Source: Lentilactobacillus sp. SPB1-3 (GTDB lineage Bacteria > Bacillota > Bacilli > Lactobacillales > Lactobacillaceae). Taken from it: DNA of 64,000 nt. Shown piece after piece: positions 22,410-41,692 of this stretch (position 1 is the first letter of the stretch; the number at the start of each line of letters is the position of its first letter). The stretch is taken from the NCBI RefSeq assembly GCF_026913205.2, contig NZ_CP168151.1, forward strand, positions 1,302,001 through 1,366,000. The letters are read 5' to 3'. The notes below the pieces were generated by a model that did not search any database, was not told the DNA's origin, and was given only the letters and a program-made list of their open reading frames with translations. Position numbers and translations under genes: made by a program.

Positions 22410-22452
22410 AGGCTAAGTGACGGAGTTGCACCGACATATCTACTCTTAGCCT
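22410..22452 (-). ncRNA. tRNA-like minihelix B (acceptor plus T arm)
   Basis: On the minus strand an 8-bp acceptor-like stem AGGCUAAG/CUUAGCCU encloses a 9-nt linker and a T-arm-like hairpin, GUCGG-UGCAACU-CCGUC, with one U.U mismatch. GGUGCAACUCC matches the tRNA B-box consensus at 10 of 11 positions. D and anticodon arms are absent. Confidence 0.5.
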
Positions 22453-22453
22453 A

Positions 22454-22531
22454 CCAGTTAGCTATCTAAATTAATGTATAATATATTGAAGGAGATATTA
22501 TTTGGTTTGGCTATGATTTTTCTAACTGGTA
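22454..22531 (-). ncRNA. Central stem-loop between minihelices A and B
   Basis: A 9-bp stem ACCAGUUAG/CUAACUGGU closes a 60-nt loop that contains a second hairpin, AUAAUAU/AUAUUAU, whose loop presents CUCCUU, an anti-Shine-Dalgarno-like sequence. It lies exactly between elements A and B, so the three may form one structured RNA of about 168 nt. It fills the gene-free stretch 22349-22654. Confidence 0.4.
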
Positions 22532-22533
22532 AA

Positions 22534-22577
22534 GTTGTCAGTCGGAATCGAACCAACTTAAAGCTCCTAGCGACAAC
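22534..22577 (-). ncRNA. tRNA-like minihelix A (acceptor plus T arm)
   Basis: On the minus strand a perfect 7-bp acceptor-like stem GUUGUCG/UGACAAC (one G.U) encloses a 13-nt linker and a perfect T arm, GUUGG-UUCGAUU-CCGAC. GGUUCGAUUCC is an exact match to the tRNA T-loop consensus. The 44-nt length rules out a full tRNA. It lies 78 bases after the ArpU-type gene. Confidence 0.6.
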
Positions 22578-22654
22578 TAAGGGTGTTTTTATATTTTTCG
22601 ACAATACCAATATAACCCCGTAAAACACATTGTGCCTGCACTGTAACTGCTCCC

Positions 22655-23095
22655 TTAATGCAATTTTTTAAAAACTATTAGATCATAATACATAAATGAC
22701 TCTGCAAACTGCAGCAGTGCTTTTGGCTTCCAATAATGAAAATAACTAGATGGACTATAATTTATAAATTGCCAGCACATTGTATCGGTATAGCCTTCAA
22801 GATAAAGCAAACTAAGTATCTGTTTACAGTCTTTATCACAAATACTGATAGCTTTGATAGCTTCTTTAACGGCTTGCTCTGCAGTTAATCTTTTAACGAT
22901 TGTTTCATCGGCGGTATTAGTCGAACTTGGTGCTTTAGGCATACCGTCATATGTAACAGCCCTTAATTCACTAGCAGATCTACCACTCATACGCATTAAC
23001 CCTGGCAATTCTACCTCTAGGAAATGTATTGCGTTTTTACGAGTTGCCTTTTCATCAATTTCACGAAATAAATGAATGATATTTTTGTCGTCCAA
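22655..23095 (-). CDS. ArpU-family late transcription regulator
   Basis: 146 residues with a TTG start nine bases after AGGGG. The N-terminal segment IIHLFREIDEKATRKNAIHFLE and the C-terminal helical CDKDCKQILSLLYLEGYTD with MCWQFINYSPSSYFHYWK (a sigma-4-like helix-turn-helix) are typical of ArpU-like activators that switch on late genes of Gram-positive phages. It precedes terS, as expected. Confidence 0.85.
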   Translation of the reverse strand: MDDKNIIHLFREIDEKATRKNAIHFLEVELPGLMRMSGRSASELRAVTYDGMPKAPSSTNTADETIVKRLTAEQAVKEAIKAISICDKDCKQILSLLYLEGYTDTMCWQFINYSPSSYFHYWKPKALLQFAESFMYYDLIVFKKLH

Positions 23096-23123
23096 TATAG
23101 TTACACCCCTGTTTTTAATAATT

Positions 23124-23210
23124 TTGTGAATAAAAAATAAATATGGTAAAATTAGGTGTAAACTTATACTTTTATTAATTGGTCGCCCCCGATAGGCGAT
23201 CTTTTTTATT
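23124..23210 (+). ncRNA. Candidate small RNA with its own promoter and terminator
   Basis: On the plus strand TTGTGA (23124-23129), a 17-nt spacer and TAAAAT (23147-23152) form a promoter-like pair. A stem GGUCGCC/GGCGAUC (23181-23201) with a T tract follows. The transcript would be about 50 nt, against the direction of flanking genes. It could equally be chance. Confidence 0.3.
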
Positions 23211-23403
23211 GCTTTGGTTCCAGAATATTGAGAACACGTTCAGTTAATCCCATGACCGTTTTTCTATTAGCACCATGGGATAGTAATTCGTGGCCAAATA
23301 TGACAGCGATATCAGTTAAATATTCAATTTCGTTATCATATCCGTTCATATCAATATCGAATCCTGCTTCACCATTCTTACTTGTAAAAGTAATCTTTTT
23401 CAT
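23206..23403 (-). CDS. Conserved small phage protein, unassigned (65 aa)
   Basis: 65 residues: a short beta N-terminus (MKKITFTSKNGEAGFDIDM) followed by a helical segment IEYLTDIAVIFGHELLSHG. No family recognised. Its ATG overlaps the stop of the preceding gene (TAATG), which couples the two. Confidence 0.6.
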   Translation of the reverse strand: MKKITFTSKNGEAGFDIDMNGYDNEIEYLTDIAVIFGHELLSHGANRKTVMGLTERVLNILEPKQ

Positions 23404-23549
23404 TATGCTAGCTCCAATTCTTTGATTGACCGTTTTCTAATTTCATTCTTGTAATCAACATCTAAATCTTGATTAATAAGAACTACATCTGGAAATACTA
23501 AGCTTTCAAGCCCTTTAGGCATTAACTCTTCAACAAATTTAATCTTCAT
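23403..23549 (-). CDS. Small phage protein, unassigned (48 aa)
   Basis: 48 residues (MKIKFVEELMPKGLESLVFP start), acidic then basic. GGAGAAC lies before the ATG and the stop overlaps the start of the next gene. It is short but the coupling on one side and the ribosome site on the other make translation likely. Function unknown. Confidence 0.5.
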   Translation of the reverse strand: MKIKFVEELMPKGLESLVFPDVVLINQDLDVDYKNEIRKRSIKELELA

Positions 23550-23605
23550 TTTTAGTTCTCCAATCAGGCAATCCGACCAAGGTACCTGTTTTTAGTCCTG
23601 TTCAA

Positions 23606-23815
23606 TTACTTATGATCAACTTGATTTTCCAAATATAAGTCGCTCATCCCTAATAAATCAGCAATGCTATACAAAGGTTCAGCAATCAGCTCCTGAATAT
23701 CCTGTTTTGTAGCATTTCTAAATTCGTCTTCACCAATCTTAGTCTTAATTTCTTTAGCTTCTGCAATTTCAATTGCATCCTTAAGTGCATTTCGTACGTT
23801 ATCGTAATCAGTCAT
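23606..23815 (-). CDS. Small phage protein, unassigned (69 aa)
   Basis: 69 residues, helical and acidic (VRNALKDAIEIAEAKEIKTK, then AEPLYSIADLLGMSDLYL). A GGAGAAAG site precedes the ATG. It follows the antirepressor gene with an 11-base gap and is probably co-transcribed with it. No function can be assigned. Confidence 0.55.
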   Translation of the reverse strand: MTDYDNVRNALKDAIEIAEAKEIKTKIGEDEFRNATKQDIQELIAEPLYSIADLLGMSDLYLENQVDHK

Positions 23816-23826
23816 ATTGCTTTCTC

Positions 23827-24621
23827 CTATTTATCTTCTTTATAATCTTGTTCAATCATTGGCATAATTCCATTTTTCTTTAATAACTGATAAATAAAAA
23901 TATGCCCCTTTTGAGTCCATTTAGTCTGTGGCTTAATATCTTTGCGACCATCGGTGTGATTATATGGGACTGGGATTGTGTGGGTATAACCGTTACTTTG
24001 ATATTTACTATACAAATACCAGCTACCAGATTGATTATATTGAACGCCAAGTTCATGAAGTTTCTTGTTTAATTGATTTGGTGTCATACCATAATTCTTA
24101 GCGATTGCAGTAACTGAAACTAATCCTTTATTTGCCAAAATACGGTCATAATAATTTGCTTTAGGCTGCAATTCTTTTATCTGTTGTTCTGCAATCAAAC
24201 GACCAGAACGTTCTGTTTTTAATTGCATTGCCAACTCGATAATCGTATCTGGGTTTAGTAGAGCTTCTTCAATCTTTTGATCTGTCATATAAGCGCCATG
24301 CTTACGGATAGATGGTAGGACTTCGTTTGTGACCCAATCTTGAAAACGTTCTGCCGTTTTGTTATTTGCTTTAATTGCTAAACGATACATTTGTGGTTCA
24401 GTGATGAAATCACCAGCGCCAAAAGTGGCGCCATTACCTAAATATTTATTAACTCGATTCCAACGGACTTTATTAGTTCCTTTTGAGTTATCTACCAACC
24501 CTACGCTCTTTGCCACTGTTTCTGCATCAAACATTAATTTGTCATTAACTAGCTTGACTGGAACTTCTTGCCCCTCAAACTTAAATGTTTCTGTCTTATC
24601 TAAAGTAGAAACTGTGTTCAT
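23827..24621 (-). CDS. Phage antirepressor (Bro-N plus KilAC)
   Basis: 264 residues. Residues about 10-110 are a Bro-N domain (FKFEGQEVPVKLVNDKLMFD, then NKVRWNRVNKYLG and the EVLPSIRKHGAYM end). Residues about 140-260 are a KilAC domain (YDRILANKGLVSVTAIAKNY). Such proteins relieve repression in induction. It sits behind a TTTAC-N7-GTAAA operator (24646-24662) matching those of the adjacent switch, so the nearby repressor probably controls it. Confidence 0.88.
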   Translation of the reverse strand: MNTVSTLDKTETFKFEGQEVPVKLVNDKLMFDAETVAKSVGLVDNSKGTNKVRWNRVNKYLGNGATFGAGDFITEPQMYRLAIKANNKTAERFQDWVTNEVLPSIRKHGAYMTDQKIEEALLNPDTIIELAMQLKTERSGRLIAEQQIKELQPKANYYDRILANKGLVSVTAIAKNYGMTPNQLNKKLHELGVQYNQSGSWYLYSKYQSNGYTHTIPVPYNHTDGRKDIKPQTKWTQKGHIFIYQLLKKNGIMPMIEQDYKEDK

Positions 24622-24645
24622 AATTAATACCTTCCTTTCAAATAA

Positions 24646-24662
24646 TTTACGTTTGTTGTAAA
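24646..24662. promoter_or_regulatory. Operator TTTAC-N7-GTAAA in front of the antirepressor
   Basis: A 17-nt inverted repeat with half sites TTTAC and GTAAA and a 7-nt centre. It has the same half sites and spacing as two copies at 24888-24904 and 24920-24936, which defines one regulon of the first switch. Confidence 0.7.
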
Positions 24663-24668
24663 CTTGTA

Positions 24669-24869
24669 CTATAAAATATTTTTCTTAAGCCAATTTCTGA
24701 CCAAATTGGCTGTTTTATTACTTACTTCTACAGAAGAGTCTGCATCTAAAACCTTGCGCAAGGTAAATTCTGAAATTCCCACTTCTTTTGATAATTGAAG
24801 TCTGGATTTCTTTTGCAAAGCGCTATTTACGATTAGTGTTTTTCGCTCCTCTTCAGTTATTGATTCCAT
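24669..24869 (-). CDS. Small helix-turn-helix regulator (Cro-like partner)
   Basis: 66 residues from ATG 24869, chosen for the AAGGAGAATTT in front of it. The run SRLQLSKEVGISEFTLRKVLD is a helix-turn-helix. It is divergent from the repressor at 24968, with two operators between them, so it takes the Cro position of a lysis-lysogeny switch. Confidence 0.65.
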   Translation of the reverse strand: MESITEEERKTLIVNSALQKKSRLQLSKEVGISEFTLRKVLDADSSVEVSNKTANLVRNWLKKNIL

Positions 24870-24887
24870 AAATTCTCCTTCTTTAAA

Positions 24888-24936
24888 TTTACACATCTCG
24901 TAAATTATTTATATTATAATTTACATTTTGCGTAAA
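24888..24936. promoter_or_regulatory. Divergent operator/promoter region of switch 1
   Basis: Two copies of TTTAC-N7-GTAAA (24888-24904 and 24920-24936) flank an AT-rich segment with TATAAT-like boxes readable on both strands. They lie between divergent DNA-binding genes. A third copy is at 24646. Confidence 0.7.
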
Positions 24937-24967
24937 TTCAAGCTTTTTATTTTATTTGAGGTGCATA

Positions 24968-25387
24968 ATGACAAACAATATTAAAAATGAGCGTAAACAA
25001 CTCGGTTTAACTCAAAAGGAATTGGCAAATGAATTTAACCAATACTTAGCTGAAAATCGCCCCAAAGCAAACCCTGTTTCCTATGCTGCAATTTCAAGAT
25101 GGGAAAATGGTGAAAATGATCCTAATTCCGATACATGGTTTTCGCTTGCATCATTTTTCAAAGTATCTGTTACATATTTGCAAGGATATTCTTCCGAAAG
25201 AGTCACTGATGAAATGACCATAATGAATGAATTGGACGAAATTACGTTTTCTGAAGATGCAAATATAAACGAATCAATTCATGAAGGACTTGGAAATATT
25301 TTTTTAGCTCTTATCGATAAGGTCGAATACTTAGAACGACAATTAGACGAACATAAGAACCCGGAAAAATATGAAGACTATGATTAA
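24968..25387 (+). CDS. CI-like repressor (XRE family), switch 1
   Basis: 139 residues from the ATG after GAGGTGCATA. The N-terminal helix-turn-helix (ERKQLGLTQKELANEFNQYL, then SYAAISRWENGENDP) is XRE-type; the C-terminal half is acidic and helical, with a coiled coil (IDKVEYLERQLDEHK). There is no peptidase-type self-cleavage domain. It is divergent from a Cro-like gene, and it is one of three such repressors in the prophage. Confidence 0.82.
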   Translation: MTNNIKNERKQLGLTQKELANEFNQYLAENRPKANPVSYAAISRWENGENDPNSDTWFSLASFFKVSVTYLQGYSSERVTDEMTIMNELDEITFSEDANINESIHEGLGNIFLALIDKVEYLERQLDEHKNPEKYEDYD

Positions 25388-25416
25388 CTTTTTTATTTTA
25401 GAAAGGTCGGATTTCA

Positions 25417-25581
25417 TTGACTTCAAAGTTACCAATGTTTGGACTAAGAATCCCTAGAGAACTCTTAGACAAGATTAAATATGTTGCTTCTTACAACGGT
25501 CGGTCTGCTAACAAAGAAATTGAACAATTAATTCAACATCATGTTGAAAATTTTGAAAAAGAACACGGTGAAATTAAATAG
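25417..25581 (+). CDS. Arc-like ribbon-helix-helix protein
   Basis: 54 residues from a TTG, with AAAGG upstream. The sequence KLPMFGLRIPRELLDKIKYV followed by NGRSANKEIEQLIQ is an Arc/MetJ-type ribbon-helix-helix DNA-binding domain. It follows the switch 1 repressor on the same strand by 29 bases and is probably co-transcribed from the prophage promoter. Likely a second regulator in lysogeny. Confidence 0.7.
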   Translation: MTSKLPMFGLRIPRELLDKIKYVASYNGRSANKEIEQLIQHHVENFEKEHGEIK

Positions 25582-25613
25582 TTATCAAGTCGCCTGCCGG
25601 GGTGGTATTTTTA

Positions 25614-25648
25614 TTGACAAATGTTTATTTCGTATTACAATGTATTAC
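25614..25648 (+). promoter_or_regulatory. Promoter and operator of the RelBE module
   Basis: A consensus TTGACA (25614-25619), a 16-nt spacer and TACAAT (25636-25641). Two direct copies of GTATTAC (25632-25638 and 25642-25648) overlap the -10 region, a plausible site for antitoxin autorepression. Confidence 0.75.
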
Positions 25649-25665
25649 GTAAGGAGATGATTATT

Positions 25666-25896
25666 TTGGCAATGATTACAGTTCGTGTTTCAGAATCTGA
25701 AAAAGAATGGTTACAATATATGGCTGACTTTTACGGTGTAACTTTATCCGACCTAATGAAGAACTATTCTATGGAACAACTCGAGGATGAGTACGATAAG
25801 CAAACAGCTGAAATAGCACATAAACGATTCATTGAAGATGGTAAGCAAACCGTGTCTATGAAGGATATCCTTGATGAATTTGGTGATTTAGATTGA
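25666..25896 (+). CDS. relB: RelB-family antitoxin (DUF6290-like)
   Basis: 76 residues from the TTG at 25666, ten bases after AAGGAG; an ATG at 25672 is also in frame. The N-terminal half is a ribbon-helix-helix (ITVRVSESEKEWLQYMADFY), and the C-terminal acidic tail should wrap the toxin. It overlaps the RelE start by four bases, the usual antitoxin-toxin layout. Confidence 0.82.
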   Translation: MAMITVRVSESEKEWLQYMADFYGVTLSDLMKNYSMEQLEDEYDKQTAEIAHKRFIEDGKQTVSMKDILDEFGDLD

Positions 25897-26159
25897 GTTA
25901 TTCACTAGAATTTACCAGGGAAGCTCAACGATCATTACGTAAAATGGATAAACACCAAGCAACGTTAATAACTCGCTGGTTGTATCAGCATGTAGATGGT
26001 ATTGATGATCCGCGATCTATTGGCAAAGGATTAACTGCCAATCGTTCGGGTCAATGGCGATATCGAGTCGGTAACTATCGAGTCATCTGTGAAATTGAGG
26101 ATGACGAATTAATTGTCACGGCCATAAATATTGGCCATCGCAGAAACATCTACGATTAA
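25893..26159 (+). CDS. relE: RelE-family mRNA interferase toxin
   Basis: 88 residues, the standard RelE length. Motifs are YSLEFTREAQRSLRKMDKHQ at the N-terminus and GKGLTANRSGQWRYRVGNYR with a C-terminal INIGHRRNIYD; the arginine and histidine positions fit ribosome-dependent mRNA cleavage. It is translationally coupled to RelB and closed by an intrinsic terminator. As a prophage-borne module it could stabilise the prophage or act against other phages. Confidence 0.88.
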   Translation: MSYSLEFTREAQRSLRKMDKHQATLITRWLYQHVDGIDDPRSIGKGLTANRSGQWRYRVGNYRVICEIEDDELIVTAINIGHRRNIYD

Positions 26160-26186
26160 GTCCACAGTAATGTGGGCTTTTTATTT
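26160..26186 (+). terminator. Intrinsic terminator of relBE
   Basis: GUCCACA-GUAA-UGUGGGC stem followed by TTTTTATTT, starting directly after the RelE stop. Confidence 0.8.
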
Positions 26187-26321
26187 ATCTTCTTTTTCAG
26201 TAACTTCTAAAATCACAACTTCACGCTTGCCCTCCATGAATGAAGGATCTTCAACCAGTCGATACTCTTGGCCACCAATCGTGATAATGTGGTTTTTGCG
26301 ATACTTAGCTAAACTATTCAT
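26181..26321 (-). CDS. Small early protein, unassigned (46 aa)
   Basis: 46 residues (MNSLAKYRKNHIITIGGQEY start, acidic end). The GGAGG six bases before the ATG and the ATGA overlap with the preceding 47-residue gene support translation. A small beta protein of unknown role in the early operon. Confidence 0.55.
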   Translation of the reverse strand: MNSLAKYRKNHIITIGGQEYRLVEDPSFMEGKREVVILEVTEKEDK

Positions 26322-26461
26322 TCGTCCGCCTCCATTAGTCGTTGCAGAACGTGTACAGTAGCAGTATCGATTCCGTCCTGCTCAGATACGCTGGCGATAC
26401 TGCCATACTTCGCTTCTAGCGGTATCAGTAACTCATACATAACTCTTGTACTTTTCCGCAT
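26318..26461 (-). CDS. Small helical early protein, unassigned (47 aa)
   Basis: 47 residues, starting MRKSTRVMYELLIPLEAKYG with a possible helix-turn-helix (GSIASVSEQDGIDTATVHVL). It follows the HNH gene by five bases, with GGAAG upstream. It may be a small DNA-binding protein, but this is inferred from pattern only. Confidence 0.5.
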   Translation of the reverse strand: MRKSTRVMYELLIPLEAKYGSIASVSEQDGIDTATVHVLQRLMEADE

Positions 26462-26466
26462 CGTAA

Positions 26467-27171
26467 TCACTTCCTAGCGTATCGTGCGTCCCAGTAATCC
26501 ATTTGTTTTTTCGTCATGATGCGCAAATTAATCAAATCGTCTTCGCCTAACGTGATTGGTTTAACGTGGAAATAATCTAGAAACGATTGCCCACCCATGC
26601 TGTGGATCAACTCGTGATGTTTCCGACAGAGGCATATAAACGATAATTTTCGATGATCGACTTGCTTTCGGCTCCGATTGCCCACTGCTTGATAGTGGTG
26701 GATGTCCGCATGCTCTTGCCCACAGATACAACACACACGGTGGCGCAAACATTCATACAAGTAATATTGTTCGTCCTTAGGCAATAGCTCATAACCCTTC
26801 TTGAACGGCACATGCCACTCGAACATGAAGTCGATAACTAGATCTAGTAACTGATTAACATCGCTCACGGAAGATTCTGAATCGTTTGACAGGCTGATCT
26901 CTTTTCCAGCTGTGTAAAAGTAAAACTGGTTGTAGAACATGGCCTTTAGAAAGTCCGCTCCTACCCACCAAAAGTGTCTCGTGATGTCATTTAATAATGC
27001 AAAGAACAACCGCCGTTGTTGTGGCCTGCTCCGTCTCGGGTCAGCAATCTCAAAGTCAACAAACAACTGGCCATTACCTCTAGTTACTGTCTCGATATGA
27101 TCGGCGTTCAATTCGTGTGGCAAATCGATAATCAACTTGCCGTCTTCAATTTTGGCGGGGGCTCTTTGCAT
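26467..27171 (-). CDS. Putative HNHc nuclease
   Basis: 234 residues. The C-terminal third carries the HNH core: CCICGQEHADIHHYQAVG, then HRKLSFICLCRKHHELIHSM, with the paired cysteine and histidine ligands visible. The N-terminal region (PQQRRLFFALLNDITRHFWW) is the usual lead domain of this family. Such nucleases accompany annealing proteins and resolvases in Lactobacillus phage replication blocks, so a role in recombination is likely. Confidence 0.85.
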   Translation of the reverse strand: MQRAPAKIEDGKLIIDLPHELNADHIETVTRGNGQLFVDFEIADPRRSRPQQRRLFFALLNDITRHFWWVGADFLKAMFYNQFYFYTAGKEISLSNDSESSVSDVNQLLDLVIDFMFEWHVPFKKGYELLPKDEQYYLYECLRHRVCCICGQEHADIHHYQAVGNRSRKQVDHRKLSFICLCRKHHELIHSMGGQSFLDYFHVKPITLGEDDLINLRIMTKKQMDYWDARYARK

Positions 27172-27221
27172 TTAATCACTTCCCAACAAGTAATATAATT
27201 ATGAAAAAAAGGAGAATTATC

Positions 27222-27563
27222 ATGTACTTAAATCTAAATGAAATTACCGTACTTAAATTCATCGCCCAAAGCTTTAACAACAATCCAACTAGCCACCCAG
27301 AGACAGCTATTAGCATGCAAACATCAATTTCTGAAAATAATGCTAGAGAGATTTTAGAAAATCTAATTGATCAAAAGTTAGTTAGACAGTTATTTAAAAA
27401 CGATGATAATAACAGCAGGTATGAGATTACTAATCGTGGCACAAATTTATTAAATGACATCGAAACCTCTGACAGAAAAGAAAAGATTAGAGAATTCCGT
27501 GATTGGGTTTGGCCGATTGTTACAGCAACGATTGCTGGAATTATTTCAGTTTTAGTTAAATAA
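27222..27563 (+). CDS. Winged-helix protein with C-terminal membrane anchor
   Basis: 113 residues from ATG 27222, directly behind AAAGGAGA. Residues about 1-85 form a winged helix (LNEITVLKFIAQSFNNNP, then SENNAREILENLIDQKLVRQ), and the last 20 residues are a membrane helix (WPIVTATIAGIISVLVK). It is on the plus strand inside a minus-strand operon, with a TAATATAAT box upstream, which marks it as an inserted, self-expressed gene. Function unknown. Confidence 0.65.
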   Translation: MYLNLNEITVLKFIAQSFNNNPTSHPETAISMQTSISENNAREILENLIDQKLVRQLFKNDDNNSRYEITNRGTNLLNDIETSDRKEKIREFRDWVWPIVTATIAGIISVLVK

Positions 27564-27638
27564 AACATGGAATAACCAGATAATTACTGCACTAACGATT
27601 ACTGGATATAACCACCTCATGATTGGACCTTGTTTCAT
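27552..27638 (-). CDS. Tiny membrane peptide, unassigned (28 aa)
   Basis: 28 residues with one hydrophobic helix (MRWLYPVIVSAVIIWLFHVL). GGAGG eight bases before the ATG makes translation likely. The stop lies within the end of the convergent winged-helix gene (overlap of 12 bases). Confidence 0.45.
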   Translation of the reverse strand: MKQGPIMRWLYPVIVSAVIIWLFHVLFN

Positions 27639-27704
27639 TTGTCATGCCTCCTCGTGTGATCTGATTTGCTTTTAAACTCTTCGATTTCGACGGGTTTAGG
27701 ATGG

Positions 27705-28127
27705 CTAACCTAAATCTTTGGCTTGCTTCCAAAATCCTTTATTACCCATGTTTTCCTGTTTACGATGATCCATAGCATGTTGGTAGCCGTATAAACCTAA
27801 CTCCAGCAATCGTTGTGACCTTATTTGCAGAATCCTGATACATAAATTATTTAAATCATCTGGTTTTAAATCGTAAAATTCACGTCTCCAGCTATATTCT
27901 GTCGCCACGTATTTTGGCCCTTCGTAATGCATAATTACATTAAATCTGTAATTCAGATGTTCTTTTCCTTGGTGATCACTTAACCGAATACTGTAGAGCA
28001 AGCCATAATCCAGCTTCAAATAGATGCTATTTGTTGAATAAGCGTCATATCTCATGACTTTAATTCCTTGGCTTTGAAAGAAGTTGATTAAAGTTTGAGT
28101 CACCTTTCGTAATTTCATAAAATTCAC
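27705..28127 (-). CDS. Conserved early protein, unassigned (140 aa)
   Basis: 140 residues, alpha/beta, with IKVMRYDAYSTNSIYLKLDY and YEGPKYVATEYSWRREFYDL. Similar proteins are common next to RusA-type resolvases in Lactobacillus phages, but I do not know a function. It overlaps the resolvase stop by four bases. Confidence 0.6.
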   Translation of the reverse strand: MNFMKLRKVTQTLINFFQSQGIKVMRYDAYSTNSIYLKLDYGLLYSIRLSDHQGKEHLNYRFNVIMHYEGPKYVATEYSWRREFYDLKPDDLNNLCIRILQIRSQRLLELGLYGYQHAMDHRKQENMGNKGFWKQAKDLG

Positions 28128-28501
28128 ATCTTCTCATGTTTCTTAATCTCGACTTCAACTCTTGGGTTGTCTTTATCCACCGAGAATTCGTCATAATAAT
28201 TGCCAATCTCTTTCCAGCCATCATTTTTAATCAAACCAGCCTGCTTCATGCCATCTTGGATAAACTTAATGGCAAACCGGATATTATCTTTGTCTTTACG
28301 TTTGTCCTTCATGTACCAGTGACAATAGATATCAATCTTGCCAGTCACTTTAAGTCCCTCGTGCATGGCTTTTTTGGTGTACATCGAACAGATAGTGGTG
28401 TAGTAGCGTTTTAAATTGCTACCGTGATACCGATTGCCCCGTTCGGCGTCGGAGTATTGGTTCAAAGCTAGGAGTTCACCTGGAATAACTATTTTGACCA
28501 T
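28124..28501 (-). CDS. RusA-type Holliday junction resolvase
   Basis: 125 residues. The core KDKRKDKDNIRFAIKFIQDG followed by GLIKNDGWKEI holds the conserved acidic residues (KDxDN and nD) that bind metal in RusA. The N-terminal strand IVIPGELLALNQYSDAERG matches the family start. It resolves branched DNA during phage replication. It overlaps both neighbours by one to four bases. Confidence 0.87.
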   Translation of the reverse strand: MVKIVIPGELLALNQYSDAERGNRYHGSNLKRYYTTICSMYTKKAMHEGLKVTGKIDIYCHWYMKDKRKDKDNIRFAIKFIQDGMKQAGLIKNDGWKEIGNYYDEFSVDKDNPRVEVEIKKHEKM

Positions 28502-28923
28502 TAGCGCCAGTCACCTTCGCTTTGTCGCTTTTCCATAGTTTCCAGTAGTTCAGCTAACTCCAGGCGTTTGCTTTCTTCGGGTAGCGCTTGGCTTAAATCG
28601 CCTTGGTATTTAGCAATCAGCGATTCTACATAGGCATCACCATCTTCTAATAATCGCCACCCCTGCCGTTTCTCCAGTCTGGCAGTTTCGATAGCTGACC
28701 ACACCATTTCAGCTCGCTTGGTATCTTCTTGCTTAACTAACTTATACAGAGTGTCGTTCATGCCCATTCTCGCAAATGATTTTTTCATCAGCTTAACGTG
28801 ATTGGCAAACCGTTTGGCACGTGATAGATAAGCATTCACTGCTCGGCTTTCCTCTAGTAATTCATCTTGCATGATTGCTTGATAATCTCGATAATTTAAT
28901 TTTTCCGCCACTGCATTCGTCAT
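28501..28923 (-). CDS. Helical early protein, unassigned (140 aa)
   Basis: 140 residues, almost wholly helical, rich in Glu/Arg/Lys, with possible coiled coils (EESRAVNAYLSRAKRFANHV). It lies between the DnaB-type helicase and RusA genes with overlapping ends. A helicase loader is not evident because no Walker motif is present. Confidence 0.55.
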   Translation of the reverse strand: MTNAVAEKLNYRDYQAIMQDELLEESRAVNAYLSRAKRFANHVKLMKKSFARMGMNDTLYKLVKQEDTKRAEMVWSAIETARLEKRQGWRLLEDGDAYVESLIAKYQGDLSQALPEESKRLELAELLETMEKRQSEGDWR

Positions 28924-33495: not shown

Positions 33496-33498
33496 AAG

Positions 33499-34226: not shown

Positions 34227-34254
34227 GCGATCACCTCCTTTAGTTCTTTGACAA

Positions 34255-35455: not shown

Positions 35456-35471
35456 TACATCACCTCCTTTG

Positions 35472-35543: not shown

Positions 35544-35611
35544 AAATTAAATTTCATCATGTCTTGTTGTTACAATTGGTGTTAGCAATAAAATGTTAGG
35601 AGTGAACACTG

Positions 35612-35848
35612 GTGAAAACTGATTCTGAATTAATTGCGAGCCGTTTAATGGATATCATTAATGAACGAAACTTAACCATTAACAGGGTTGCAACTTTATC
35701 TGGCATGCAACAATCCTCAGTAAACGCAATTTTTCGAGGGGCTAGTGCAAGCCCAAAAGTTAAAACGCTCAGGAAAATTGCCGCTGGGTTGGACATGTCT
35801 TTCATTGAATTAATGAACTTCCCGCCCTACAACGAGGTGGAAAAGTAA
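35612..35848 (+). CDS. CI-like XRE repressor, switch 2
   Basis: 78 residues from a GTG behind AGGAGTGAACACTG. A single XRE domain (IINERNLTINRVATLSGMQQ, then SSVNAIFRGASASPKVKTLR). It lacks any oligomerisation or cleavage domain, so it is shorter than classical CI. It is divergent from Cro 35258 and translationally coupled to the membrane-protein gene after it. Confidence 0.8.
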   Translation: MKTDSELIASRLMDIINERNLTINRVATLSGMQQSSVNAIFRGASASPKVKTLRKIAAGLDMSFIELMNFPPYNEVEK

Positions 35849-36336
35849 TGGCTGCTTGGATTGTTCCTACAGTTACCATTATTTCTACCTATGTGATTGG
35901 ACGTCTCCAAGCTTCTCAAAGGCAAAGTGTAGCTGCTGCTAAAGAGAGATATGAGAAGCTGTACCTGCCATTTATGATGGTTCTTATTAACGGAAGATAT
36001 TTTTGGAAAGATGAATACACGCGACTTTATTTGAAAAATAAAGAAAAGCTGTTACCTATCTTGGATAAAAACGTTTCTATGATGGGTATTAACATGATGA
36101 ATTCCTACTTGGATTTTCAAAGATATAATTTTAATTTTGAATATTCCCAAAAGTACGGAAAAAATAGTAGCGAATATGTTGAAGCGGAATTTGTATATAA
36201 TGCAAGTTTTGAAAAACTTGTTGATGTCCTTCTCAAAGAAGCGGAAGAATTATCAAAAAAATTAAAATATCCAAACCTGCCAGGAGAACTTTTGCATAAG
36301 TTTTCGGCACGTAAGCATGTATTAGAATCAATATGA
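35848..36336 (+). CDS. Membrane-anchored prophage protein, unassigned
   Basis: 162 residues. An N-terminal membrane helix (MAAWIVPTVTIISTYVIGRL) is followed by a long soluble helical domain (FEKLVDVLLKEAEELSKKLK near the end). It overlaps the repressor stop by one base and is expressed in the lysogen, a profile shared by many superinfection-exclusion proteins. This role is inference from layout only. Confidence 0.6.
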   Translation: MAAWIVPTVTIISTYVIGRLQASQRQSVAAAKERYEKLYLPFMMVLINGRYFWKDEYTRLYLKNKEKLLPILDKNVSMMGINMMNSYLDFQRYNFNFEYSQKYGKNSSEYVEAEFVYNASFEKLVDVLLKEAEELSKKLKYPNLPGELLHKFSARKHVLESI

Positions 36337-36403
36337 AAGCAAAATACCAACCATATAAACCGGGATCTGCAAAAGAACTTAGCTGATTTATAATATCCTT
36401 CAC
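36233..36403 (-). CDS. Candidate two-helix membrane protein, antisense (56 aa)
   Basis: A GTG start at 36403 lies seven bases after AAAGGAGA. The frame of 56 residues has two hydrophobic segments (LYGWYFAFILILIHAYV and LLAGLDILIFLIILPLL). Its 3' end is antisense to the end of the 162-residue gene. Strong ribosome site and clean membrane pattern argue for a real gene; the antisense overlap argues caution. Confidence 0.4.
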   Translation of the reverse strand: MKDIINQLSSFADPGLYGWYFAFILILIHAYVPKTYAKVLLAGLDILIFLIILPLL

Positions 36404-36483
36404 TGGCTATCTCCTTTCGTTCTTTGAAACCTTAATATTCGTTCCTCCTTATGAGATAATTAATCTCGAAGGAGGTGATAACA

Positions 36484-36795
36484 ATGGTTGATGATTTTGA
36501 TCGGTTGTCTGGTATGATCGACAAGATGAAAGATATGGAAAGAAACGGAAAGCAAGACGTTCCATTTGAAGTTATTTTTCCTTCCGAATTTATGCTTGAA
36601 CACACAAACAATAAGTTCGATAACGTCTATGAATTCCTCGATTCTGGTAAATTTAACACAGACGATTTTGACTCAATTAACGAAGATCAGTTAAATGTGT
36701 TTATCAGTGAAAATACTGATTTCGAAAACTGGGAAGACTTTAAAGGTACTGGAACTGAAGAATATGTTTTCCGTCAATTAGGATTTGATAACTAA
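36484..36795 (+). CDS. Acidic prophage protein, unassigned (103 aa)
   Basis: 103 residues, very acidic (FNTDDFDSINEDQLNVFISE and DFENWEDFKGTGTEEYVF). GAAGGAGGTGATAACA precedes the ATG. The N-terminal 40 residues are helical. It lies in the plus-strand lysogeny block between two switches. Negative charge is compatible with DNA mimicry, but no motif proves it. Confidence 0.6.
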   Translation: MVDDFDRLSGMIDKMKDMERNGKQDVPFEVIFPSEFMLEHTNNKFDNVYEFLDSGKFNTDDFDSINEDQLNVFISENTDFENWEDFKGTGTEEYVFRQLGFDN

Positions 36796-36918
36796 TTCAA
36801 ATTCTTTAATTTCATCAAGATATTTTTGCAGTTGTTTGGCTTGCTTGTCGGCTTGTTCAAGCAACTGTATTAATTTACTTAAATTAGGAACTTCTATCTC
36901 TATGCCTTTATTCTTCAT
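36778..36918 (-). CDS. Small coiled-coil protein, unassigned (46 aa)
   Basis: 46 residues (MKNKGIEIEVPNLSKLIQLL start, then a Gln/Lys coiled coil). GGAGGTGAGGA lies before the ATG. It follows the Cro-like gene of switch 3 by 15 bases, hence likely co-transcribed. The 3' end overlaps the convergent acidic gene. Confidence 0.5.
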   Translation of the reverse strand: MKNKGIEIEVPNLSKLIQLLEQADKQAKQLQKYLDEIKEFELVIKS

Positions 36919-36933
36919 TTCCTCACCTCCCTT

Positions 36934-37179
36934 CTAGCTGGGTTGTTTCTCTTTACCCACATTTTCAATAACGGAATCCGTTAGTTTGTCATCGAAAAAA
37001 ATATTAATATCTACTCCTAAAAATAAGGCAATATTATTTAAATCATCAGTAGATATTGTCTTATTTATTTTCTCAATACGATAATATTTTTGACTATTGT
37101 AACCAAGAAAAGAAGCAACTGCACTTTGTTTAACGCCTTTAGCTTCTCTAATCTTGGCGATATTTCTTTGAACTTGCAA
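36934..37179 (-). CDS. Cro-like XRE regulator, switch 3
   Basis: 81 residues from TTG, eight bases after AGGAGG. The domain (IREAKGVKQSAVASFLGYNS, then YYRIEKINKTISTDDLNNIA) is XRE-type. It is divergent from the repressor at 37320. A perfect AACGGAATCCGTT palindrome lies inside its own coding sequence at about 36967-36981, matching the intergenic operators. Confidence 0.8.
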   Translation of the reverse strand: MQVQRNIAKIREAKGVKQSAVASFLGYNSQKYYRIEKINKTISTDDLNNIALFLGVDINIFFDDKLTDSVIENVGKEKQPS

Positions 37180-37217
37180 CCGATCACCTCCTACTTGATT
37201 ACAAATATAAGTATACT

Positions 37218-37295
37218 AACGGATTACGTTATTGTCAATAAAAAATTCCATAATTCCGTTATTTTTATCACGAAATCCGTTGTTTAGTTTATAAT
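37218..37295. promoter_or_regulatory. Operators and promoter of switch 3
   Basis: AACGGATTACGTT (37218-37230) and two half sites of the same type (CCGTT near 37256-37260 and ATCCGTT 37275-37281) lie between the divergent genes. A TATAAT (37290-37295) for the plus strand is next to the last half site, so repressor binding would overlap the promoter. The sequence is unlike the operators of switches 1 and 2. Confidence 0.7.
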
Positions 37296-37319
37296 ACAGA
37301 TACATAAGGGGTACTAAAC

Positions 37320-37718
37320 ATGAATAATTTAGGAAACAAAATAAAACAATTAAGAAAAAATAAACACCTTACTCAAAAACAATTAGGTGATTTAGTTCAT
37401 TTAACGCCTCAAGTGATTTCTAACATCGAACGAGGATACACATCTGCAAGTGCAGAAGATTTAGCCAACTTTAGTAGAGTATTTAACGTAAGTATTGATG
37501 AATTAAGTAAAAATGATATTAATTCATATGACCCATCCACACCTAGTTGGGCAACAGATAAAGATATTAATGATCTACATAACTTCTTAGCCGAAAACGG
37601 GAAAATGACTTATAAAGGTATGGATTTGACCAAAGAACAGCGTGAACGTGTGGATCAAATCATCACCCAAGTGTTTTGGGAAGAACTGGAAAAGGATAAA
37701 CGAAAGAATGAACGATAG
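37320..37718 (+). CDS. CI-like repressor (XRE), switch 3
   Basis: 132 residues. XRE domain at the N-terminus (IKQLRKNKHLTQKQLGDLVH, then PQVISNIERGYTSASAEDLA). The C-terminal half is a short helical domain instead of a peptidase. Together with the ImmA-like peptidase encoded next, this is the ImmR/ImmA-type arrangement in which the repressor is cleaved by a separate protease. Confidence 0.87.
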   Translation: MNNLGNKIKQLRKNKHLTQKQLGDLVHLTPQVISNIERGYTSASAEDLANFSRVFNVSIDELSKNDINSYDPSTPSWATDKDINDLHNFLAENGKMTYKGMDLTKEQRERVDQIITQVFWEELEKDKRKNER

Positions 37719-38121
37719 ACAACTTAAAAAATTAATTAGTTTTCTCGGTCAACGTTACGGTACTTTCGACCCGTTCACTATTGCTGAGAAGTTGAATATT
37801 GATGTTCAATACCGTCCTTTTTCAAAAAAGCCATTAGGCGATACCATTAACTTCTTTGGGCGCCCTATTATTTTATTGGCAGAAAGTTTAAAGGAGTCTA
37901 ATCAACGCTACTTTGTATGCGCTCATGAATTGGGTCATGCAATCGAGCATGCCAATATGCAGGCCTACTATGTATCAAATGACTTCGCTAAAACACACTA
38001 TGAAGTACAGGCTGATAAATTTGCAGTTAGTCTACTAGGACAACTATATGTAGAAGAAAATGGTCATATTCCCGATAATTGGATGGATCTAGTTCATGAA
38101 TATGGATATCCAAGTTTATAA
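37708..38121 (+). CDS. ImmA/IrrE-family metallopeptidase
   Basis: 137 residues from ATG 37708, overlapping the repressor by 11 bases. The zinc motif HELGH lies in CAHELGHAIEHANM, with the third ligand in the ADKFAVSLL helix. Members cleave the partner repressor after DNA damage (known for ImmA). Its coupling to the switch 3 repressor suggests that switch 3 is the one that senses induction. Confidence 0.9.
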   Translation: MNDRQLKKLISFLGQRYGTFDPFTIAEKLNIDVQYRPFSKKPLGDTINFFGRPIILLAESLKESNQRYFVCAHELGHAIEHANMQAYYVSNDFAKTHYEVQADKFAVSLLGQLYVEENGHIPDNWMDLVHEYGYPSL

Positions 38122-38202
38122 ACATCAATAACACAGACCGTTAATTCGGTTTTTTATTTAATTAAACATGTGAATTAATATACTATATCCGATTAATTAT
38201 AT

Positions 38203-38257
38203 TTACGAGCAATATTACTGATCCTCGTTAAAAGCTGTATATTGGGAGGAATTTATT
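38203..38257 (+). promoter_or_regulatory. Shared leader element L1
   Basis: CGAG-N-CTCG hairpin whose loop contains ATTACTGA, followed by TAAAAGCTG and a GGGAGGA site. This matches the leaders L2 (38692), L3 (40778) and L4 (41173), though L1 is the most diverged. Confidence 0.45.
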
Positions 38258-38632
38258 TTGAAATTAAAATTGAATATGTGGACCGCTATTGATGACATCA
38301 TCAATGTAATCCTATTTTTCTTTTCATGGTTTTTAATTATCGGAGCTGCTTTCAGTGATGGCGGTGGTAACCAGGCCGACAATATGGCTAACTTTTTACT
38401 TATTATGGCTTTAATTGGTTTAGCACTAAATATTATTTCATTGATTCGTAGCCATAAAGTAAACATTTCTATCGTTGGCCCTATTCTAGGAATTATCGGT
38501 AATGTAGTTTATCTGTTTGGAGCTTGGGCAGCATTTCCAGCTATCGTTTTGCTTATCATCGCTAGTGTATTTAGTTTCATGCAACATCCTGTAAAAAATA
38601 ACAACGAATCAAATAATCCAGTAGTACATTAA
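38258..38632 (+). CDS. Multi-pass membrane protein, unassigned
   Basis: 124 residues from a TTG behind GGGAGGAATTTATT. Four hydrophobic segments (about 12-30, 43-60, 68-90, 92-112) and a short Asn-rich tail. It is the first gene of the lysogenic-conversion cassette downstream of ImmA. No family is recognised; it resembles small DUF4064-type proteins only in layout. Confidence 0.6.
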   Translation: MKLKLNMWTAIDDIINVILFFFSWFLIIGAAFSDGGGNQADNMANFLLIMALIGLALNIISLIRSHKVNISIVGPILGIIGNVVYLFGAWAAFPAIVLLIIASVFSFMQHPVKNNNESNNPVVH

Positions 38633-38643
38633 CATAATTATTA

Positions 38644-38686
38644 CCCGCGTCTGGCGACTAAAACATGGTTCAATTCCACGTGCGGG
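38644..38686 (+). ncRNA. tRNA-like minihelix C (acceptor plus T arm)
   Basis: CCCGCG/UGCGGG stem (38644-38649 with 38681-38686) encloses a 14-nt linker and a T-arm-like hairpin CAUGG-UUCAAUU-CCACG (one mismatch). It begins 12 bases after the stop of the membrane-protein gene. GGUUCAAUUCC matches the T-loop consensus. Confidence 0.5.
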
Positions 38687-38691
38687 ATTAA

Positions 38692-38742
38692 CGTCCAAAT
38701 ACTGAAGACTATAAAAGCTGTACATATCTGGGGAGATAAATT
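38692..38742 (+). promoter_or_regulatory. Shared leader element L2
   Basis: GUC-CAAAUACUGAA-GAC hairpin, then TATAAAAGCTG, ACAT and CTGGGGAGATAAA before the ATG of the secreted protein. Nearly identical blocks occur at 40778 and 41173. Confidence 0.6.
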
Positions 38743-39642
38743 ATGAAAATATTTAAATCAATAATCGTTGGCGCTATTGCACTTGTTAGTGGTCTTACTA
38801 TTGCTAATAACAAGCCTGCAGAAGCAAAAACATATACAACTGTACCTACTTCATTAAGAGGACACTGGTATTCATACAATGGTGGATATAGTTCGATAAC
38901 TGCCAATAAATATACTTTTAGGACGTATTCAACGGGATATGGAAGTATTACCTTACATGGTAACAAATTCCCCCGATATGCTCGGGGACATAGTCAAATG
39001 TTCGTAGATAGAAATTCAAAAGGATACTATAACATTGGAAAGTACGCGTCAGATGAATGGCCATATTATAAACGTGTTAAACATTTGGGACATACCGCTA
39101 TTAGAATATTGTCATACGCCGGATATGGTGATTACAACGTTGGATACTATTACAAAACTAAATCAATTGCTAAACATCCTAAGTTAGGTAAGGCATACAA
39201 GTTTAGAACAGCCGACTCTACAGACTTTTTCTATAATACTTGGCGTAGTGCATATCTGGATCAAAGCTCTGAAAGTGCCGATTTATATAACTCTAAAGAT
39301 GCTGCTGCAGATGGAACCGATGAGCCAGATTACACATTAAAAAATCACACTACTAAGGTATACGTAAAGTGGCCAGCAAAATATGTAAAAGATGACGTAG
39401 TCCAAGTAAAGTTTAACGGCAAGATGTTCTATATGGACAATGAATTACATGACTTAAGACCATATAATGCTAGTAAAGATAGCACTGGATTTAGTTCTAA
39501 CTTCAGTCCTAATAGTAAAAATATAATTTTGCAACATGGTACTCATGTTTACAAAGGAACATATTGGTTTTGGTTTAAATCATTTTCATCTAACGACTCT
39601 ATTATGTACATTTTCAACGGTAAGCACTGGGTGAAACAATAA
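38743..39642 (+). CDS. Secreted prophage protein, lysogenic conversion candidate
   Basis: 299 residues. Signal peptide about 1-28 (MKIFKSIIVGAIALVSGLTI, cleavage near AEA). The mature part is Tyr/Lys/Gly-rich (VPTSLRGHWYSYNGGYSS), a pattern of small Lactobacillus cell-surface proteins with a lipocalin-like beta barrel, followed by a C-terminal beta domain (about 200-299). It is expressed in the lysogen on the plus strand. Function unknown; an effect on the cell surface is likely. Confidence 0.7.
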   Translation: MKIFKSIIVGAIALVSGLTIANNKPAEAKTYTTVPTSLRGHWYSYNGGYSSITANKYTFRTYSTGYGSITLHGNKFPRYARGHSQMFVDRNSKGYYNIGKYASDEWPYYKRVKHLGHTAIRILSYAGYGDYNVGYYYKTKSIAKHPKLGKAYKFRTADSTDFFYNTWRSAYLDQSSESADLYNSKDAAADGTDEPDYTLKNHTTKVYVKWPAKYVKDDVVQVKFNGKMFYMDNELHDLRPYNASKDSTGFSSNFSPNSKNIILQHGTHVYKGTYWFWFKSFSSNDSIMYIFNGKHWVKQ

Positions 39643-39700
39643 TTTTTAACTCTCTATGGTTCTTGCAGCGATTCGACTCCGCTGGGAAGTATTAAAAATT
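39641..39700 (+). ncRNA. tRNA-like stem-loop D
   Basis: A 9-bp outer stem AAUUUUUAA/UUAAAAAUU starts in the stop codon of the secreted-protein gene. Inside is a hairpin CAGCG-AUUCGACUC-CGCUG that holds a T-loop-like UUCGACU. It belongs with elements A, B, C and E but is the least canonical. Confidence 0.4.
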
Positions 39701-39717
39701 TTGCAAGGAGATATTAA

Positions 39718-40557
39718 ATGAGTAAATTAAAAGATAACGGTAAAAGTCCAAGGGAATACATCTATTTGGATACAGTAGAGATGAATTCATTATTAGCTCA
39801 GTTTGAAGATGGAATTCCTCAACTAATAAAGAACGTTCAACAAACCACAACATCTACATTGGAATCAAGTACTAAGCAAAAACATCACGAAGAAAGTGCT
39901 GGATTAAATTCAAATAAGGCATCAATGGGCAGATCTGCTATGGAAACAGGATCAGAAACTAATGGGAAAATGAATCAATTAGCAATTGATACAGTATACA
40001 ACGATTTCGCTGTTGATTTAGTAGAGAAAGAGCTTGAAGACGCTGAATTGTTAAAAGTAACTTCCAAACAGTCAGAAGGTTCTATTGTTAAGTTAAAGCA
40101 GCCTTTCTCGTTGTTAGATTTCAAATCATTGTCAGAAATAACTAGAAATAAATCTGCGATCCATTTAATGAAATTGGCTGACGATTTTGATGATTCCTGG
40201 GTTGAAGGATTTGACAGCTTTAAAAAATCAACAGACTTTTTAAACTCATTATTTCCAGATACAGTTATGTTCAAATTAAAAAGCTCTTTAGTGTTCGCTG
40301 AAACGTCAAATTTAAGAATGAACCTGACACAATTGCAAATGTTGGCTCTTAGTACTAGAAAAATAACTGTTCTCGGAGAAGTCGAGTCTATAATTGAGTC
40401 CGATGATTCTGCCGCTTATCAGCATTCCGATGAAAATAATATAACTGATGCCATGCAATATTTATTACCAGGACTTTCAGTGAATATACTATCAACTTTT
40501 ACAGGTATAAAAAAAGACGATCGGCTAATAAAGCCAATCGCTATCTATTTTGAATAA
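39718..40557 (+). CDS. DUF6414-like protein
   Basis: 279 residues, soluble. The N-terminus SPREYIYLDTVEMNSLLAQF matches the REYIYLD...NSLLAQ start of DUF6414 proteins, which are common on mobile elements of Firmicutes. Residues about 50-85 are a Ser/Asn-rich linker; the rest is mixed alpha/beta with no catalytic motif I can name. The position in the conversion cassette would suit a phage-exclusion factor, which is inference. Confidence 0.6.
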   Translation: MSKLKDNGKSPREYIYLDTVEMNSLLAQFEDGIPQLIKNVQQTTTSTLESSTKQKHHEESAGLNSNKASMGRSAMETGSETNGKMNQLAIDTVYNDFAVDLVEKELEDAELLKVTSKQSEGSIVKLKQPFSLLDFKSLSEITRNKSAIHLMKLADDFDDSWVEGFDSFKKSTDFLNSLFPDTVMFKLKSSLVFAETSNLRMNLTQLQMLALSTRKITVLGEVESIIESDDSAAYQHSDENNITDAMQYLLPGLSVNILSTFTGIKKDDRLIKPIAIYFE

Positions 40558-40729
40558 ATTTTATTCTTTTACTAACAGCACTCTCTAGTCGTTCATTTTC
40601 CATTTGTAATTGTTGACTCTTCTTATGGACCCGATGTATGTTATCAGATACTTTTCTTTCGAAGTAATCATATTCCTTTAGAGTGTTTTTTCTTCGCTTA
40701 GGTCTCATAAACATCACCATCTTCTTCAA
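40541..40729 (-). CDS. Small basic coiled-coil protein, unassigned
   Basis: 62 residues, Lys/Arg-rich (MVMFMRPKRRKNTLKEYDYF) followed by a coiled coil (IHRVHKKSQQLQMENERLES). Several ATG codons near the N-terminus make the start uncertain. It is convergent with the DUF6414 gene and overlaps its end by 17 bases. Ribosome site is weak. Confidence 0.4.
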   Translation of the reverse strand: MKKMVMFMRPKRRKNTLKEYDYFERKVSDNIHRVHKKSQQLQMENERLESAVSKRIKFIQNR

Positions 40730-40777
40730 AATAAATTATTGAACAATATGGACTTTTTGTCAATAAATAATGAGTAT

Positions 40778-40813
40778 TGTCCAAAAACTGACGACATTTC
40801 TGGGGAGATAAAA
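40778..40813 (+). promoter_or_regulatory. Shared leader element L3 (short form)
   Basis: UGUC-CAAAAACUGAC-GACA hairpin followed directly by ATTTCTGGGGAGATAAAA before the ATG. The TAAAAGCTG part is missing. The stem base pair U-A here and C-G in L4 (CGUC/GACG) is a compensatory change. Confidence 0.55.
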
Positions 40814-41161
40814 ATGAAGATAAGTAAATATGTATTAACGGGTGTTGCTGCTATGTTATTAGGAATCACCGCAATAGCAAATACTCCCACAAACACACAG
40901 GCTAGCAGTGCTGTACCTGCTAGAATGCAACACAGATGGAAAGCAAATAAATGGGGAATCAATTATCACCTCAATTGCTATAAGTACCATGCAAATTTTT
41001 ATGATGGCCGTTGGCATAAACTTTATTACACTAGGATTAATACCAATACATTTACTGCTAATCCTAAAGGAAACGCATATAACGGGATCACAATCAAATA
41101 CAAAGGACATCACAATATGACCGTTCTTTATGATGTAGCCCACTTGCACTTTTACAGATAA
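40814..41161 (+). CDS. Small secreted prophage protein
   Basis: 115 residues from ATG 40814. Signal peptide about 1-29 (MKISKYVLTGVAAMLLGITA, cleavage near TQA-SS). The mature protein is basic and Tyr/His/Lys-rich (VPARMQHRWKANKWGINYHL), with the same overall lead-in as the 299-residue secreted protein: VP, basic residue, W. The two may share an ancestor. It is preceded by leader L3. Confidence 0.6.
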   Translation: MKISKYVLTGVAAMLLGITAIANTPTNTQASSAVPARMQHRWKANKWGINYHLNCYKYHANFYDGRWHKLYYTRINTNTFTANPKGNAYNGITIKYKGHHNMTVLYDVAHLHFYR

Positions 41162-41172
41162 TTTTCTAGATT

Positions 41173-41224
41173 CGTCCAAATACTGATGACGCTAAAAGCT
41201 GGACATTTTAAGCGGAGGAAGTCG
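41173..41224 (+). promoter_or_regulatory. Shared leader element L4
   Basis: CGUC-CAAAUACUGAU-GACG hairpin, then CTAAAAGCTGGACATTTT and GCGGAGGAAG before the ATG of the lipoprotein. GUCCA and UGGAC could also pair as an alternative. Confidence 0.6.
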
Positions 41225-41644
41225 ATGAAAAAACATTGGAAAAGTATTTTAATTTTATTGTCATTTACCTTAATTATCACACCTTTATTAACAGCGTGTG
41301 GAACTTATAGCACCAAAAACGCCCAGGGGTACGAAATAGCAACGGTTAATTCTATAAATGGACAAATTTTTGCCGATGATAATCTCCATGACCCAAATGG
41401 ACATAAATTCGCATACTACTATGACCAGAATATAGATAAAAACAACGTCTATATAACTAGGGACGGACAATGGTATCGGTATAATTTACACTCTAATAAA
41501 AAGATAACTAAACCATTCCAAGGAAATATCCCTAATAAACAAGAATTACTTAAAAATCGTATATTGCTATCCGACAACTCTAGAAATGATTTTATTATCC
41601 AAGGCAATGTTAAAAAGCTAATGAACATGTTAAAACAAAAATAA
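41225..41644 (+). CDS. Prophage lipoprotein
   Basis: 139 residues. The signal peptide MKKHWKSILILLSFTLIITP ends in the lipobox LLTACG, so it should be lipidated and face outside. The mature part is mixed charged/beta (GYEIATVNSINGQIFADDNL). Prophage lipoproteins in lactic bacteria (Ltp type) can block DNA entry of other phages; no Ltp-type repeat is visible here, so the role stays open. Confidence 0.65.
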   Translation: MKKHWKSILILLSFTLIITPLLTACGTYSTKNAQGYEIATVNSINGQIFADDNLHDPNGHKFAYYYDQNIDKNNVYITRDGQWYRYNLHSNKKITKPFQGNIPNKQELLKNRILLSDNSRNDFIIQGNVKKLMNMLKQK

Positions 41645-41692
41645 TATTAATAGAATGGTATTCACGATGGTTCGATTCCATCGATGAGTATT
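41643..41692 (+). ncRNA. tRNA-like minihelix E (acceptor plus T arm)
   Basis: A 9-nt arm AAUAUUAAU pairs with AUGAGUAUU at eight of nine positions, enclosing a 13-nt linker and a perfect 6-bp T arm CGAUGG-UUCGAUU-CCAUCG. GGUUCGAUUCC is an exact T-loop consensus. It begins within the stop codon of the lipoprotein gene and is followed three bases later by a terminator. Confidence 0.6.

Follow-up and report, generated by a model that had tools for sequence, protein, structure and literature searches.

Anticodon-less mini-tRNAs at gene ends in Lactobacillaceae prophages as candidate cut signals for host tRNA-processing enzymes

The plant mitochondrial t-elements (PMC8003010, PMC4919922) are tRNA-like structures that are not tRNAs; lying between genes, they set the places where RNase P-type enzymes and RNase Z cleave. 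We report on tRNA-like elements without an anticodon arm, called mini-tRNAs below, starting from five of differing completeness (E1 to E5) in prophage regions of a 64,000-nt stretch of the Lentilactobacillus sp. SPB1-3 genome (G000:C1:1302001-1366000, hereafter the window; the genome is 1.93 Mb in one contig). As with the t-elements, a tRNA-like element lies at the border of a gene, on the strand that is transcribed; the differences are that these elements belong to bacterial phage operons and form a single covarying family whose layout is fixed, and that their cutting is only predicted.

Beside the t-elements, mascRNA is a second published analogue (PMC4919922, PMC8003010). mascRNA (MALAT1) and menRNA (MEN-beta), tRNA-like RNAs of 3' ends, are animal nuclear non-coding RNAs, whereas the present elements are short, follow protein genes and are predicted to be processed. 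Phage-derived C4-type antisense RNAs are processed by bacterial RNase P (PMC11143913); what they would have in common with the mini-tRNAs is phage-derived RNA as a substrate of this enzyme, for the mini-tRNAs a predicted property. In mitochondrial tRNA punctuation tRNAs lie between the genes; in our case a slot is sometimes taken by a real tRNA, but most of the slots seen hold anticodon-less mini-tRNAs. The tRNA-like domain of tmRNA has an acceptor and a T arm and no anticodon arm; of this domain, our model R3 (see below) matches the T arm only (E=0.2). A literature search, largely without subscription journals, did not find such an element named in phages of lactic acid bacteria.

A covarying family of mini-tRNAs

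The motif GGTTCGATTCC occurs in eight copies in the genome: in two tRNA genes (L002, L008), one open frame (L001), E1, E5 and three mini-tRNAs outside the window (L003, L006, L007). A conserved 28-nt leader upstream of cargo genes, considered in the last section, pointed to further species, in which the sequences at the cargo borders have diverged and the layout is the same. A strict pattern scan of the window returned E1 alone, against 0.275 matches per shuffle, and a looser one returned E1 and E3 plus three matches elsewhere; such scans are poor detectors, and covariance models were therefore used. R1 was made from 14 hand-picked seeds and yielded 37 matches among 87 sources with E no higher than 2; R2 was built from 116 matches; R3 was built from 93 matches at loci outside this genome only, aligned with R1, whose seeds include elements of this genome. 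Since R1 and R2 contain window elements, their E-values in the window are circular, and R3 carries the claim. With all filters off, its four best matches in the window are E3, E1, E4 and E5 (E-values in Table 1), followed by the T arm of tmRNA and two matches at chance level (1.4 and 4.6). In the whole genome it finds nine places at E<=0.04, and the tenth (0.54) lies in a tRNA cluster.

At E1-E5 neither ARAGORN nor Rfam (RF00005) calls a tRNA; no match in the window other than tmRNA and a group I intron attains the Rfam gathering score, and the low-threshold Rfam matches are chance-like. The 116 matches have no overlap with the 62 tRNA and tmRNA genes called by ARAGORN in 90 sources. Elements that carry no RNA annotation are present in Lactobacillus phages LBR48 (overlapping the final 14 bases of an annotated gene) and JNU_P2 and in Latilactobacillus phage TMW 1.1365 P3. 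Considering these annotations together with the lack of Rfam and ARAGORN hits, the elements are missed by routine annotation. Phage records hold few DNA relatives, and an exact 23-base part of E1 has no match in viral contigs.

At the level of genomes, R1 matched 11 of 24 in the genus (E 0.01), 58 of 397 in Lactobacillaceae (E 0.001; 15 of 40 genera) and 16 of 395 in the order (E 0.0005), three of the last outside Lactobacillaceae. R2 matched 3 of 398 genomes in a sample of the phylum (E 0.001); all these counts include the present genome, and the contrast between family and phylum is approximate, the two models being different. The family of elements is real and extends far beyond the five elements of the window.

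Covarying homologues in related phages were the test set beforehand, and they were found. Over 106 distinct members, 90.3% of the cells hold standard pairs (59.4% shuffled, 36-51% slid) and the covariation score is 0.779 (0.206 shuffled, 0.112-0.202 slid); for the 85 distinct members outside this genome the figures are 90.5% against 61.9% and 0.741 against 0.201. The alignments were fitted to the acceptor and T stems, which biases the counts, and alignment A1 has a one-column shift of the acceptor in some rows (L003b, L036b, L049b, L088). Cells changed on both sides number 407, compared with 118 in shuffles. This bears on the proposal that the elements are decaying tRNA genes, which would suit the longer tRNA-like pieces and the one real tRNA-Ile in the same region of relatives, as well as the degraded look of E2 and E5. 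However, decay would not preserve pairing, and because of the covariation we give this proposal a very small chance.

The structure was considered in 56 representatives; these are a greedy pick at <80% identity out of the 105 distinct members of full length. All have a T loop of the form TTCRANY or TCCRANY (which the model favours), and the strand 3' of the T loop has 12 nt in 54; the first-pass annotation had split this stack 7+5, but the model gives 6+6. The annotation had also described a linker with neither D arm nor anticodon arm. The anticodon arm of a canonical tRNA is indeed absent, the linker from acceptor to T stem being 9-14 nt in the representatives; instead of a bare linker, however, there is a mini D hairpin. 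GG is present in the linker of 55 of the 56, and both pairs flanking it are formed in 36 of these 55, against 14.5 in 2000 shuffles (largest 23). Their types are TC/GA (22), CT/AG (5), GC/GC (4) and AC/GT (2), with one each of TT/GA, CC/GG and TA/TA. This hairpin is the freer test because it is absent from the model. The likeness to tRNA is thus closer than had been claimed, as it comprises the T loop, the D-loop-like GG and the flank described next.

Flanks, position and predicted processing

Directly 3' of the acceptor, at position 73, 31 of the 56 representatives have A, and position 74 is U in 52 and A in 4, with no C or G (U 91 and A 14 in the 105 distinct members). In local CCA-less tRNA genes A73 is found in 49 of 85 and position 74 is U in 73 and C in 7; these flanks were placed by the U8 anchor, which served for 88 of 90 tRNAs, and 3 tRNAs with encoded CCA were set aside. 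On the 5' side, G at position -1 is rare in the elements (4 of 56), likewise in the local tRNAs. As stated in PMC8549757 and PMC7479834, RNase Z cuts directly 3' of the discriminator, and a C immediately downstream suppresses cutting. Judged by their sequence, the elements qualify as candidate CCA-less RNase Z substrates (acceptor and T arm, without C after the discriminator), and they have the predicted shape of an RNase P substrate (an acceptor-T stack with an elbow).

As to position, with open frames of 50 codons or more counted, 36 of the 56 lie within 40 nt 3' of a same-strand stop; on the other strand the count is 7 of 56, and for random places the rate is 8.5%. The elements might instead be transcription terminators, and a separate terminator-like hairpin does follow some of them (E5, L093, L194); but a U-run comes directly after the element in only 2 of 56, and a terminator-like hairpin within 90 nt in 6 of 56, close to the random 7%, so that this explanation has hardly any chance.

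The elements thus combine covarying stems, a tRNA-type T loop, a linker GG that resembles G18-G19 and is usually closed by two base pairs, a 3' flank of A then U, and a position that is usually 3' of a gene. Features read by tRNA-end-processing enzymes are kept and decoding features are missing; the simplest mechanism would be that the operon transcript is processed at these sites. We presume, with a probability of roughly 0.6, that they are reduced, anticodon-less tRNA mimics in phage operon RNA, usually 3' of a gene, which the host would read and process as CCA-less pre-tRNAs. RNase Z would cut 3' of the discriminator base, and RNase P probably at the 5' side of the acceptor; the upstream message would gain a 3' end near its own stop codon and the downstream cistron would be freed, in some cases with a leader hairpin near its new 5' end. 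The outcome would be a phage form of tRNA punctuation, and the mini-tRNAs at the ends of many prophage accessory genes would probably be cut signals for host tRNA-processing enzymes. Transcription, cutting and the effect of cutting, including the formation of mRNA 3' ends, we infer from the sequence.

Several observations weigh against such processing. Position -1 is U in 21 of 56 elements compared with 69 of 85 local tRNAs, so that the RNase P cut is less well supported. For 20 of the 56 representatives there is no same-strand stop in the 40 nt upstream. Both-side changes are seen in 11 of 12 pairs, no better than in shuffles (10.9), and the model by which members are selected in part dictates the stack of 12 and the T loop. 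The minimum-energy folds of E3, E4, E5 and the relative L003b depart from the model, and a competing long hairpin is possible in some members; single-sequence folding of 11 sequences gave z-scores from -2.77 to +0.32, which is weak evidence.

The first-pass suggestion that both enzymes act on the elements fares well for RNase Z, whose signature fits, and less well for RNase P, where the shape fits but U at -1 is less common than in local tRNAs. One can propose that RNase Z acts alone, so that the upstream mRNA keeps the mini-tRNA at its 3' end as a folded cap, which may receive CCA and would shield the message from 3' exonucleases; a clear RNase Z-type signature (U74) beside a weak -1 signature would agree with this. 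However, RNase P also reads features of the tRNA elbow, and the linker GG and the T loop are such features, so we consider action of RNase Z alone unlikely. It is also conceivable that the elements mimic the tRNA elbow and bind another host or phage protein, as a decoy or a regulatory site, with no role in processing. The T loop and GG alone could suit many tRNA-binding proteins, and arrays of elements occur near packaging genes in G019 and G020; but U74, which is no part of the fold, would be difficult to account for if there were no 3' processing, and the elements stand in cis after many unrelated genes, which makes such binding quite improbable. We retain processing as pre-tRNAs as the preferred reading.

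Elements and genes of the window

The features are listed in Table 1.

Table 1. Mini-tRNAs, leader hairpins and neighbouring genes, in positions of the window
Feature	Position	Strand	Remarks
E1, mini-tRNA	22534-22577	minus	acceptor GUUGUC/GACAAC, mini D hairpin GCU-AGG-AGC, T arm GGUUCGAUUCC; R3 E=3.2e-5
E2, degenerate tandem neighbour of E1	22410-22452	minus	acceptor kept
E3, mini-tRNA	38643-38687	plus	~11 nt 3' of stop of cargo gene 38258-38632; R3 E=5.2e-8
E4, mini-tRNA	39649-39690	plus	6 nt 3' of stop of 38743-39642; imperfect acceptor; R3 E=7.4e-5
E5, partial member	41643-41692	plus	R3 E=9.1e-5, model positions 9-37 only, aligned 41656-41683
Terminase small subunit gene	21489-21965		
Late transcriptional activator	22655-23095	minus	phrog_248; upstream of E1
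Repressor and a metallo-protease gene	37320-38121		
Cargo gene	38258-38632	plus	phrog_11626 (unknown function); E3 follows
Leader hairpin	38693-38720	plus	exact pattern match; between E3 and next cargo gene
Cargo gene, secreted-looking protein	38743-39642	plus	E4 follows
Leader, partial	~40779-40795	plus	
Leader hairpin	41174-41201	plus	exact pattern match; before cargo gene 41186-41644
Cargo gene	41186-41644	plus	E5 follows
Integrase gene	41781-42917		adjoins tmRNA gene

The five elements initially proposed are not equal. E1, E3 and E4 (the last within the 39641-39700 first annotated) match the family model, and E5 does so in part: it retains the T arm and the linker GG and has lost the acceptor, energy folding favours a hairpin of 13 pairs over the acceptor proposed for it, and a hairpin like an intrinsic terminator, read by eye, follows its T arm. 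In elements of the CUCAC type (L012 6675-6716, L010 10679-10720, window 41656-41692) GGUAUUC can pair with GAGUAUU in an alternative long hairpin, which competes with the acceptor; of these two folds, only the long hairpin remains in E5. E2 was recovered in the window searches by none of R1, R2 and R3; its T loop is UGCAACU, its T stem has a U-U mismatch and its linker lacks GG. A relative with the same acceptor is found in a second prophage-like region of the same genome (DNA 88% identical over 22402-22463); E2 is conserved but degenerate. E1 also has a homologue in that region (L006/L011), where the L006 element follows a relative of the late activator (29% identity, E=1e-11); this activator we take to be ArpU-like.

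The claim that each element comes just after a same-strand gene stands for E3, E4 and E5 and fails for E1 and E2, which are 77 nt and ~200 nt past the activator gene, between it and the terminase small subunit gene. In relatives (L133, L138, L204) the activator-terminase interval, corresponding to 22410-22577 of the window, contains tRNA-like pieces in arrays, with inverted repeats between the pieces and, in some of these, a longer insert (by eye); in L138 a real tRNA-Ile is located there at 1082-1156.

E3, E4 and E5 are within the lysogeny module, in which a repressor and a metallo-protease gene are followed by the cargo genes (38258-41644) and then by the integrase gene. The L007 element follows a relative of the cargo gene that precedes E4 (61% identity over 153 aa, the values also given for the gene before the L012 element); the product of the cargo gene before E5 has no match in protein family scans. 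The 3' end of tmRNA (43073-43136) has an inverted copy, 86% identical, at G000:C1:1288552-1288614, ~56 kb away and outside the window, which is possibly a trace of integration. The group I intron match that exceeds the Rfam gathering score is at 9495-9767 (minus), near late phage genes.

Cargo cassettes and their possible meaning

In many phage cargo genes the leader, GTCCAAANACTGANGACNNTAAAAGCTG, is situated just 5' of the ribosome-binding site. It is found in 56 stretches of viral contigs and, allowing up to 2 mismatches, in 18 of the 24 genomes in the genus. Covariation is seen at the pair outside GTC/GAC (63 of 80 paired, against 36 in shuffles); the leader has no Rfam match and could act as a hairpin in RNA or as a promoter. 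It follows within 90 nt downstream of the element in 12 of the 56 representatives, compared with 1.5% of random places.

Of 81 proteins encoded upstream of elements, 80 were scanned, one frame overlapping a neighbouring element; a further 24 elements have no open frame within 70 nt. Matches include superinfection-exclusion families (at least 7), DUF805 (at least 7), DUF4352 (at least 6) and Abi_2 (at least 1). A real tRNA-Met occupies comparable slots: in JNU_P2 it comes immediately 3' of an element, in TMW 1.1365 P3 it stands between genes, and in L106 it precedes a leader.

With a leader and a 3' hairpin, the cargo genes resemble exchangeable cassettes, and a tyrosine integrase gene lies beside an array; it is tempting to compare the elements to integron attC and to propose hairpin recombination sites which move the cargo. 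However, the conserved part is tRNA-like (T loop, GG, U74), and no shared flank core was seen by eye in the 106 distinct members, no model search having been made; we regard recombination sites as very unlikely. An extension of the processing reading is that phages of Lactobacillaceae possess a tRNA-punctuation system of portable leader-gene-mini-tRNA cassettes, whose transcripts host RNase P and RNase Z would cut into messages of one gene each, their 3' end defined and their 5' end structured; the lysogeny operon could then take up any cargo gene without loss of its expression. Cutting may in that case be coupled to translation, since many acceptors are within reach of a ribosome terminating at the stop codon. 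This extension we propose tentatively and with some doubt; if it is true, the excised mini-tRNAs, ~43 nt long, would make up a small-RNA class of their own that is new.

The elements are a sequence beacon for prophage cargo genes, whose products include superinfection-exclusion and abortive-infection families. If the predicted processing is true, they would be a bacterial counterpart of the organelle t-elements and mascRNA, and ordinary bacterial tRNA-processing enzymes would also shape phage messages by means of a dedicated and widespread element.

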